Positions 30,789-34,220 of a DNA stretch of 34,259 bases are shown one piece after another. Source of the stretch: Flavobacteriales bacterium (GTDB lineage: Bacteria > Bacteroidota > Bacteroidia > Flavobacteriales_D > Sanyastnellaceae); the NCBI GenBank assembly GCA_030828175.1, contig JAURDB010000012.1:1-34259 (forward strand), in the 5' to 3' direction. A program made the position numbers and the translations under genes. Below the pieces are notes generated by a model. The model made no database searches and was not told the origin of the DNA. It was given only the letters and a program-made list of their open reading frames with translations. How positions within the stretch are numbered: the stretch's first letter is position 1; each line of letters opens with the position of its first letter.

Positions 30789-31772
30789 TCACCAGTCGAG
30801 CAGCCAGCCGAAAAACAGCGGCGCCACGATGGTGGCATCCGATTCGATGACGAATCGGGGCGTCTCAACGCCGAGTTTGCCCCATGTGATTTTTTCATTG
30901 GGAACCGCTCCCGAGTAGCTCCCGTAACTCGTGGTACTGTCGGAAATCTGGCAGAAATAGGACCACAGTGGAACACCGGTTCTGCCGAGGTCCTGATGCA
31001 GCATGGGCACCACACAGATGGGGAAATCGCCCGCTATCCCGCCGCCAATCTGGAAGAAGCCAACGCCCTGTCCGGTCTCCTGAGTCGTCTGCGTGTACCA
31101 ATCCGCGAGGTACATCATGTACTCGATGCCGCTTTTGACCGTTCCGGGTTGGACATCTCCCTCCAGGCAGTGGGCGGCGAAGATGTTGCCCAGCGTGCTG
31201 TCTTCCCAGCCCGGACAGACGATGGGAAGTCCCTTCTCGGCCGCTGCGTGCATCCAACTGTCGGCCGGATCGATCTGGAAAGCGTCGTCCAGTTGTCCAC
31301 CCAAAAGAGCCTCGTAGAAGAACTCGTGTGGGAACTTCCTTTCGCCGCTCAGCTCGGCCTCCTTCCACAGATCCACCATCACCCCCTCCAGCTTGCGAAA
31401 AGCCTCCTCCTCCGGGATGCACGTATCCGTTACGCGGTTCAGTCCGCGGTCGAGCAACGCCTGCTCCTCGGCGGGCGACAAGTCACGGTAATGCGGTACC
31501 CGCTCGTAGTGGTTGTGCGCGACAAGGTTCATCACGTCTTCCTCGAGGTTGGCTCCGGTACAGCTGATGATGTGCACCTTATCCCGGCGGATCATCTCTG
31601 CGAGGCTGCGGCCCAATTCAGCCGTGCTCATGGCGCCTGCGAGGGTAATCATCATGCTTCCTCCGCCCTGCAAGCAAGTGTCGTACGCCTGCGCAGCCTC
31701 AGGGATCACAGCGGCGTTGAAGTGGCGATAATGGCGATCCGCAAAGGCGCGGACAAACGGTTTCTGCTCCAT
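30789..31772 (-). CDS. Deoxyhypusine synthase-like protein (candidate homospermidine synthase)
   Basis: MITLAGAMSTAELGRSLAEMIRRDKVHIISCTGANLEEDVMNLVAHNHY...GGGIAGDFPICVVPML...SGAVPNEKITWGKLGVETPRFVIESDATIVAPL; start 31772 (MEQKPF) or 31796. Confidence 0.92.
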   Translation of the reverse strand: MEQKPFVRAFADRHYRHFNAAVIPEAAQAYDTCLQGGGSMMITLAGAMSTAELGRSLAEMIRRDKVHIISCTGANLEEDVMNLVAHNHYERVPHYRDLSPAEEQALLDRGLNRVTDTCIPEEEAFRKLEGVMVDLWKEAELSGERKFPHEFFYEALLGGQLDDAFQIDPADSWMHAAAEKGLPIVCPGWEDSTLGNIFAAHCLEGDVQPGTVKSGIEYMMYLADWYTQTTQETGQGVGFFQIGGGIAGDFPICVVPMLHQDLGRTGVPLWSYFCQISDSTTSYGSYSGAVPNEKITWGKLGVETPRFVIESDATIVAPLFFGWLLDW

Positions 31773-31773
31773 T

Positions 31774-32724
31774 TCAGGTGGATTTTGGCTCGGCAATGGG
31801 CTCGGGTTCCAGCACGTAGGTCAACATCTTGTGCAAGAGTTTCGCTGCGGTGAATGCACTGGGGCTGCGCTCCATCCGGGGGGCGAGCTCCACAATGTCA
31901 AATCCGACAACGCGGTGCCGTTCTGCCGCTGCCCTGATGAGCCCGATGACCTGGTACCAATTCAACCCCCCGGGCTCAGGCGTCCCGGTTTCCGGCAGGT
32001 AGGCAGGGTCAAAAACGTCCAGGTCCACGGTGATGTAGAGCGGGGTACCCGCAGGCCCCAATCTGTCGACAGCAGCCGCGATCCAATCGGCGTCGGCAGC
32101 AGCATGGCAATGCGCTCCGTGAAAGACATTGCCTTCTTGCTCGTAGTGGCGCTCCTCGGCCTCCGTGCTGCGGATCCCCACCTGAACGAGTCGGGCATGT
32201 GTCGCAGCCCAATGCAAAGCGCAAGCGTGGTTACAAGCGGATCCATGGAAGGTGCTCCGCAAGTCGCTGTGTGCATCCAACTGCAAGACTGCCAATCCCC
32301 GCTCTGCAGCCGCACAGGCCTGAATCGCTCCGATACTGACGCTGTGCTCACCCCCTACCACAATGGGCATGACCCCTTTTCCCATCCACTTTCCTACTTC
32401 CCCTCGGACATCCGCGCAAACCTGCTCAGGAGACTTTGCCACGCCATCCACCTCCAGCGGAAGGGCCTCCAGAATGGCAATGCCCTCACCGTGTACTTCG
32501 GAGCCAGACTCGATGTCGAACAGCTCCATGTTCTCGAGTGCCTCAAACATGGCATCCGGTCCTTTGTCCGCCCCCTTTCCCCAAGTGCTCGTCCCATCAT
32601 AGGGCACAGGCAGGATCACGGCACGGGGAAGGCGGCCATCCGTCAGTACGGGCTCTCCGGCATAATGCCGTATGCCCAAAGTGGGAGGGTGGAAATCCGG
32701 CTCGTTGTACATGGAAACCATCAT
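31774..32724 (-). CDS. speB: Agmatinase (arginase/ureohydrolase family)
   Basis: VVGGEHSVSIGA, QLDAHSDLR, TVDLDVFDPAYLPETGTPEPGG; start trimmed from 32949 to the ATG overlapping the speA stop. Confidence 0.92.
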   Translation of the reverse strand: MMVSMYNEPDFHPPTLGIRHYAGEPVLTDGRLPRAVILPVPYDGTSTWGKGADKGPDAMFEALENMELFDIESGSEVHGEGIAILEALPLEVDGVAKSPEQVCADVRGEVGKWMGKGVMPIVVGGEHSVSIGAIQACAAAERGLAVLQLDAHSDLRSTFHGSACNHACALHWAATHARLVQVGIRSTEAEERHYEQEGNVFHGAHCHAAADADWIAAAVDRLGPAGTPLYITVDLDVFDPAYLPETGTPEPGGLNWYQVIGLIRAAAERHRVVGFDIVELAPRMERSPSAFTAAKLLHKMLTYVLEPEPIAEPKST

Positions 32725-34220
32725 TGTCGGACCGATTGGGACGCCCGAAAAGCCTTGCGCCGGGACTCCGCTTGTTTGGCCTTGTTGCTCGCCTCGTCCT
32801 CCAAAAGGACGGCTTCCGAACGCTGCTGGCCGTATCCAAGCAGGGCGAGTACGTCTTCCCCCTGCTGCTCGTCGCAAAAAACCTCCGCCTGCAGACGGCC
32901 CTCCGCATCCCGGTTCAACAGCACATGCTTGGGTCCGGGAATCAAGCAATGGTGCACGCCCCCGTGGCCCCCGATGTTGTCCTGATACGCCGCAGTGTTG
33001 AAGAAGGCGAGGTACAGCGGTTTCTCCGGGCTGAACTTGGGCAGGTATATCGCATTGAGGTGCTGCTCCGAATTGTAGTAATCATCGCTGTCGCAGGTCA
33101 ACCCTCCCAGGAATACCCGCTCGTAGTTGTCCTCCCAGCGGTTGACGGGCAGCATCATGAAACGCTTGTTGATCGCCCAGGTGTCCGGAAGGGTCGTCAT
33201 GAAGCTCGAATCGATGAGGTTCCAGCGCTCCCGGTCATTCTGGCGCTTCTGGTACAGGACCTTGAAGAGCGTTCCTCCGGCCTCTCCCACCGTGAAAGAG
33301 CCGAATTCCGTGAAGATGTCCGGAACGGGAACCCCCTGTTCACTGCAGTGTACCATGATCTGTTCGAGGATGGCCTCGATCATGTAGCTGTAATCGTATT
33401 CGAAGCCCAGGGAATTCTTGATGGGAAGCCCGCCGCCGATGTTGAGTGCCGTCAATTGAGGACATTCCTTTCTCAGCAGGCAATACACGTCCAATGCCTT
33501 GCGCAGCTCGTTCCAATAGTATGCCGTGTCCCGAATGCCTGTATTCACGAAGAAGTGGAGCATGCGCAGCCTGAGATTCGGATGGTCCGCCAGGTGCTCC
33601 CGCCAGAAAGGCACGATGCGCCGGTATCCCATTCCCAGGCGAGAAGTGTAGAACTCGAATTTGGGCTCCTCCTCCGATGCAATGCGAAGTCCAACGTCTA
33701 TGGGCGATTTCACCGCCTCACTCAGCATTTCGAATTCCAGCTCGTTGTCCAGAACGGGCAGGATTCCGGTGAACCCATCCGAATGCAGGGCCGCGATCCG
33801 GTCCACGTATGCCCGGGTCTTGAAGCCGTTGCAAACCACCGTGGCCTTGCGGTCCAAATGACCGCTCCCCTCCAGCGACCGAACGATGTCAAGGTCGAAA
33901 GCGCTGCTCGTTTCCAGGCGGGCCCCATGCCGCAACACTTCCTCTGTGACATGGCGGAAATGTGAGCTCTTCGTCACGTAACAATAGTGGTAGGCGCCTT
34001 GGTAGCCCAGCTTGTCCATGGCTTCGTTGAACCAGCCAGTGGCCTTTCGGATGCTCTCGCCGATGCGGGGCAGGTAGGTGAAACGCAGAGGAGTGCCGTA
34101 ACGCTCCACGAGGTCCATCAGGTCAATGCCGTGGAAGTGGAGACTGTCGCCTTCGAGTACGAATTCGTCCTGGGGCCAGTCGAAAGTTTGCTCGATTAGG
34201 TCGAGATACCTTGTTTTCAT
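32721..34220 (-). CDS. speA: Biosynthetic arginine decarboxylase (fold type III PLP)
   Basis: GTPLRFTYLPRIGESIRKATGWFNEAM...YHYCYVTKSSHFRHV...ARLETSSAFDLDIV...LNIGGGLPIKNS; adjacent speB. Confidence 0.9.
   Translation of the reverse strand: MKTRYLDLIEQTFDWPQDEFVLEGDSLHFHGIDLMDLVERYGTPLRFTYLPRIGESIRKATGWFNEAMDKLGYQGAYHYCYVTKSSHFRHVTEEVLRHGARLETSSAFDLDIVRSLEGSGHLDRKATVVCNGFKTRAYVDRIAALHSDGFTGILPVLDNELEFEMLSEAVKSPIDVGLRIASEEEPKFEFYTSRLGMGYRRIVPFWREHLADHPNLRLRMLHFFVNTGIRDTAYYWNELRKALDVYCLLRKECPQLTALNIGGGLPIKNSLGFEYDYSYMIEAILEQIMVHCSEQGVPVPDIFTEFGSFTVGEAGGTLFKVLYQKRQNDRERWNLIDSSFMTTLPDTWAINKRFMMLPVNRWEDNYERVFLGGLTCDSDDYYNSEQHLNAIYLPKFSPEKPLYLAFFNTAAYQDNIGGHGGVHHCLIPGPKHVLLNRDAEGRLQAEVFCDEQQGEDVLALLGYGQQRSEAVLLEDEASNKAKQAESRRKAFRASQSVRQ

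Follow-up and report, generated by a model that had tools for sequence, protein, structure and literature searches.

What does a homolog of deoxyhypusine synthase (DHS) make in a bacterium where it is encoded directly behind an arginine decarboxylase and an agmatinase? The question is raised by a gene cluster close to one end of contig JAURDB010000012.1 from a Flavobacteriales bacterium. This contig was analyzed over its whole length of 34,259 nucleotides and is called the window in what follows. The window is a single contig of a genome of 2.32 Mb (84% complete, 252 contigs), and for comparison this genome was combined with those of 59 relatives to a set of 60 genomes. Judged from the sequences, the operon very probably constitutes a homospermidine biosynthesis unit, the product of which would replace spermidine as the triamine of the cell. 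This reading is well supported because eIF5A is absent, because there is one triamine enzyme per SpeA, because Flavobacteriaceae have both homospermidine and the gene, and because residues typical of DHS have been lost.

Layout of the operon

Three tightly packed genes on the minus strand had been described in an earlier note on this DNA, and all three were found. The first, speA (34220-32721, minus strand), encodes a short arginine decarboxylase of the alanine-racemase fold with 499 amino acid residues, whose best relatives of solved structure are biosynthetic arginine decarboxylases (ADCs). The protein is shorter than the TIGR01273 type and scored 147 bits on that model, and because this is under the equivalog cut-off of 624, the name SpeA should be read as putative. 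The start codon of speB (ATG at 32724; gene 32724-31774, minus strand, 316 amino acids) overlaps the speA stop by the 4 nt (ATGA) noticed before. The agmatinase assignment made with it holds: SpeB scored 182.6 bits on TIGR01230, which exceeds the cut-off (174.3), and among proteins of solved structure its closest relative is the agmatine ureohydrolase 3pzl. The DHS-like gene (31772-30789, minus strand), a candidate gene for homospermidine synthase and abbreviated here as dhs, has its best start at ATG 31772, 1 nt after the speB stop, leading to a protein of 327 amino acids, and an alternative start at TTG 31796 would extend this protein to 335 amino acids.

The cassette is larger than the three genes to which it had been confined. 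A fourth gene in the same direction, orf88 (30767-30501, minus strand), starts 21 nt 3' of dhs with a GTG codon and encodes a small protein of 88 amino acids with an acidic tail. Past orf88, the gene order continues with tRNA-Val(GAC) (30460-30385, minus strand; detected by ARAGORN) and then feoA, with feoB convergent. Only 39 nt of the contig precede the start of speA, which leaves most of the promoter region outside the visible sequence. Promoter and terminator scans gave no signals above chance. The packing of three independent families into one operon that recurs in many related genomes is far beyond chance.

In many cassettes of relatives speB is not adjacent. Several family members carry another gene at the place that speB has in the window. 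In locus L037 (8373-9227) this gene encodes a protein with a mechanosensitive channel domain of the MscS type, and by eye its counterparts in L038, L046, L048 and L049 resemble it, so that polyamines may have an osmotic link.

Family and fold of the DHS-like protein

The DHS-like protein was recognized by Pfam model PF01916 (1e-38; 133.6 bits, above the cut-off of 27). When its predicted structure (pLDDT 85) was compared with the PDB, the top matches were all deoxyhypusine synthases, with a TM of about 0.7 and 16-20% identity; the active-site loop 280-295 of the monomer model has a pLDDT below 50. On the model for SpeY (NF001980) the protein scored 100 bits (cut-off 450) and on that for CdmS (NF002699) 83 bits (cut-off 500). 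True SpeY proteins of the same phylum reached 468-566 bits on NF001980 and CdmS relatives of the same phylum 563-597 bits on NF002699. Membership in either family was rejected on these scores, and of the previously drawn comparison with SpeY there stands that both are kindred bacterial DHS homologs, not that the window's protein is of the SpeY family itself.

A tree of 49 proteins places the window's protein in a clade of 27 members, which is set apart with a support of 100/99. The clade falls among the bacterial enzymes, SpeY and CdmS, and apart from the DHS of archaea and eukaryotes. Its exact place in the tree is tentative, as a long branch leads to it and the tree program warned of long-branch attraction. 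Taken by its sequence, the DHS-like protein belongs with strong support to a clade of its own, as yet without a curated name, that is neither SpeY nor CdmS. This clade is spread over Bacteroidota such as Flavobacterium, Chryseobacterium, Riemerella, Chitinophaga, Hymenobacter, Pontibacter and Algoriphagus, with a few records from other phyla. Six members nested inside the Bacteroidota clade (L138, L161, L162, L165, L092 and L091) come from records named Gemmatimonadaceae, Gammaproteobacteria, Acidobacteria, Verrucomicrobia, Deltaproteobacteria and Neomarinimicrobiota, and represent either horizontal transfer or misbinned contigs. Two further observations concern other DHS homologs. A lone PF01916 protein with a very long branch (L181, G185:C121) fell short of the cut-off of every NCBIfam DHS model and is possibly a further DHS-like type. 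In one genome of the same phylum (G285), two SpeY-like genes were found, each on a contig of its own (L174 and L175).

Active-site residues

The region around the catalytic lysine is kept, as the earlier note had stated: the DHS-like protein contains the motif SGAVPNEKITWGKL, and its Lys299 corresponds to human Lys329. In an alignment with the human enzyme, the numbering of which is used below, the catalytic residues Lys329, Trp327 and Glu323 are invariant in 28 aligned members, and Thr131, Glu137, Asp238 and Ser317 are kept as well. His288 is replaced by Asp in all clade members tabulated, an assignment that was anchored on the GGG motif because a clade-specific insert around 287-292 makes gap placement there somewhat uncertain. 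His289 is replaced by Phe and Tyr305 by Gln, both as in most bacterial types: SpeY and CdmS have mostly Gln at Tyr305 and Asn/Phe at His288/His289, and DHS proper has Tyr and His/His. Also, Asp316 is Tyr and Asp243 is Asn in the DHS-like protein; haloarchaeal DHS, like almost every member of SpeY and CdmS, has Leu at the position of Asp316. In DHS, His288 has been described as an invariant proton acceptor/donor (PMC7226451). This residue pattern indicates that the covalent chemistry has been kept and that marks common to the protein-modifying DHS examined have been lost, and the presence of Asn at Asp243 and Tyr at Asp316 suggests a substrate pocket unlike that of any characterized member.

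The pattern bears on whether the DHS-like protein might modify, in a hypusine-like manner, a lysine of some bacterial protein instead of a free amine. Such an activity would be in line with its kinship to DHS and with the retention of Glu137, a residue of DHS proper. However, His288, His289 and Tyr305, which the DHS examined from archaea and eukaryotes have in common, are all lost and, together with the genomic evidence given below, this makes the modification of a protein very improbable.

Distribution of SpeA, triamine enzymes and eIF5A

SpeA was found in 42 of the 60 genomes and the DHS-like protein in 31, every one of them with SpeA. SpeE or CASDC accompanies SpeA in nine genomes, none of which has the DHS-like protein, and the two types occurred together in 0/60 genomes. 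SpeE was called at >190 bits, with the addition of G046, where the gene is truncated at a contig end; weaker or longer-frame matches to the SpeE Pfam family (for example, 158 bits in a 625-aa frame in G005 and 144 bits in G027) were excluded by score and length. In the remaining two SpeA genomes (G011 and G043), where no triamine enzyme was detected, SpeA is cut by the contig end, for which reason the idea that speA of G011 is a remnant was rejected. The 18 genomes without SpeA have neither the DHS-like protein nor SpeE or CASDC. SpeA pairs in every intact case with exactly one triamine enzyme, and the DHS-like protein, SpeE and CASDC swap in this role. Fisher tests gave 1e-7 for the exclusion and 2e-13 for the pairing of SpeA with any triamine enzyme, values that are indicative only, since the 60 genomes are related by descent and independence is overstated. 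At the level of genera, 26 with the DHS-like protein stand against 9 others, and no genus is mixed.

A search of the whole genome for eIF5A, SpeE and CASDH/CASDC had been proposed in the earlier note. In a search in which archaeal controls were positive, eIF5A was found neither in the window's genome nor in the 59 relatives, and the hypusine pathway was rejected as the main reading on this ground. The absence of eIF5A also disfavors, along with the residue losses, the aminobutylated protein target that had been named as the alternative, as does the alternation of the DHS-like protein with SpeE and CASDC, which make a free triamine. Similarly, neither SpeE nor CASDC was found in the window's genome, and its only two saccharopine-dehydrogenase-type matches are both partial and probably represent one gene split between contigs. 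Matches to PF16653 of about 450 aa are present in nearly all 60 genomes, with or without the cassette, and no curated NCBIfam name applied to them. They were read as saccharopine dehydrogenase, and the presence of an additional, HSS-type homospermidine synthase was rejected.

With no recognized spermidine-making enzyme in the window's genome, spermidine would have to be imported if the DHS-like protein worked like plant homospermidine synthase (HSS) and transferred the aminobutyl group of spermidine to putrescine. According to the literature, plant HSS and DHS both take spermidine as donor, but Flavobacterium cells hold almost no spermidine, and a route from imported spermidine seems highly unlikely.

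Candidate route to homospermidine

For all Flavobacteriaceae, homospermidine has been reported as the main polyamine (PMC3072086), and it amounted to 20-27 umol/g dry weight in two Flavobacterium species that contain only small amounts of putrescine and spermidine (PMC8570120). In Flavobacterium psychrophilum, Flavobacterium foetidum and Flavobacterium suaedae, speA, dhs and orf88 were found in a row. Among DHS homologs, SpeY from Anabaena is an established homospermidine synthase (PMC10385936), those of the SAR11 cluster have been described as homospermidine synthases (PMC9992855), and clusters of speDA, speB and speY have been described (PMC10407285). Within the openly accessible literature searched, there was no paper naming the homospermidine enzyme of Flavobacteriaceae and no reported assay of any member of the window's clade.

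From the observations made here, we infer the reaction, its substrate and the cellular product as follows. SpeA would decarboxylate arginine to agmatine, and SpeB would convert agmatine to putrescine with removal of urea. The DHS-like protein would oxidize one putrescine with NAD+ and bind its aminobutyl group to Lys299 in an imine linkage, and transfer of this group to the amine of a second putrescine, followed by reduction, would lead to sym-homospermidine. Homospermidine would then serve as triamine in place of the spermidine formed by SpeD/SpeE or CASDH/CASDC. Points that weigh against this reading are the low scores on both curated bacterial models, the changes at Asp243 and Asp316, the cassettes from which speB is separated, and the long branch of the clade. 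The same order, from arginine via agmatine and putrescine to homospermidine, had been put forward before; its end point is favored by the mutual exclusion, by the absence of eIF5A and by known producers carrying the gene, and its putrescine step is left between two routes.

In the second of these routes, which is modeled on Thermus, two agmatines would be coupled to caldomycin, and SpeB would then strip off both guanidino groups to yield homospermidine without free putrescine. The DHS homolog CdmS couples agmatines in this way, and Asp243 and Asp316 are lost there too (PMC10981699); the separation of speB from many of the cassettes would also suit this order of reactions. However, the DHS-like protein lies far below the CdmS cut-off, and since SpeY and haloarchaeal DHS lack Asp316 too, this change is not specific to the use of agmatine. 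An apparent match to Ser67 of CdmS turned out to be Ala here, as in SpeY (the numbering is uncertain), and a comparison of the guanidino-site residues of CdmS did not discriminate between the routes. An agmatine deiminase gene next to dhs, substituting for speB, would have been a sign of the putrescine route, but a motif search of 80 named loci revealed none. We consider coupling of agmatine before the action of SpeB rather unlikely, and the substrate that is coupled is probably putrescine.

The small acidic protein encoded by orf88

In 37 of 99 loci orf88 is located directly 3' of dhs, and it occupies this position in Flavobacteriales, Saprospiraceae and at least one Bacteroidales relative (A2 alignment). 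For its product, a compact core was predicted (pLDDT 90), followed by a tail of which about half consists of Asp and Glu (median fraction 0.55, and 0.53 in the window). No match was obtained in Pfam, NCBIfam or PHROGs, and the fold had no PDB match at E <= 0.001. As the sole small protein linked to dhs, the orf88 product was considered as an obligate protein substrate of the DHS-like enzyme and rejected, because most dhs genes have no orf88 next to them and none of the lysines of its product is invariant, which argues further against modification of a protein. From its charge and location, one might guess at a polyamine-binding or regulatory role. A bolder and rather doubtful proposal is that the clade is a separately specialized homospermidine synthase with a remodeled site (Asp at His288, Tyr at Asp316), and that it works with the orf88 product as a dedicated partner, the acidic tail of which would bind homospermidine and buffer or regulate it like an antizyme or polyamine sink.

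Probable loss of the cassette in sibling species

The tRNA-Val gene is a conserved flank of the cassette that is also present where the cassette is not. In seven siblings (G001, G002, G016, G013, G008, G009 and G005; also listed as loci L197-L201, L203 and L204), tRNA-Val, feoA and feoB are continuous and the four genes, orf88 included, are absent. The gene before the tRNA encodes a sulfotransferase in those siblings for which enough upstream sequence could be read, for example G001, and a sulfotransferase gene also precedes speA in the cassette-bearing G006. In G025 and G028, which belong to two other genera of the family, cassette genes likewise lie upstream of a tRNA-Val(GAC). Since these outgroup genera carry the cassette, at least seven sibling species most likely lost all four genes at an otherwise conserved site. 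CASDC, and SpeE by the >190-bit criterion, were not found in the cassette-free siblings, which would then either import triamines or live without them; they are possibly polyamine auxotrophs or triamine-free cells.

Comparison with known systems

With the swap of the DHS-like protein, SpeE and CASDC, and with the loss in siblings, it becomes possible to study whether homospermidine and spermidine can stand in for each other, and under which conditions bacteria dispense with both triamines. For Flavobacterium, Chryseobacterium, Hymenobacter, Chitinophaga and others, the clade is the obvious candidate for the homospermidine enzyme, and the sole family name that it earned in these searches, deoxyhypusine synthase, is misleading for bacteria without eIF5A.

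With SpeY the clade shares PF01916, the catalytic lysine, Gln at Tyr305 (in most members), Phe at His289, SpeA and SpeB as partners and presumably the product. In contrast, the positions His288/Lys287/Asp316/Glu137 are Asp/Gly/Tyr/Glu in the clade and Asn/Lys/Leu/His in SpeY, and the two form separate clades. CdmS from Thermus is similar in belonging to the DHS family, in its catalytic lysine, in the loss of Asp243 and Asp316 and in having a ureohydrolase in its pathway, but many substrate positions differ, the score is 83 bits as compared to 500, and CdmS too forms a clade of its own. Human and archaeal deoxyhypusine synthases have the same fold and the same Lys329/Trp327/Glu323 chemistry, whereas the window's clade occurs without eIF5A, has lost His288, His289 and Tyr305 and is only 16-20% identical. 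Finally, the bacterial HSS of the Blastochloris type would form the same product but belongs to another family, akin to carboxyspermidine dehydrogenase (PMC9992855), and the protein of the window has the DHS fold. In summary, the pathway is one known in kind, and what is new is the clade itself and its small, very acidic partner protein encoded by orf88.
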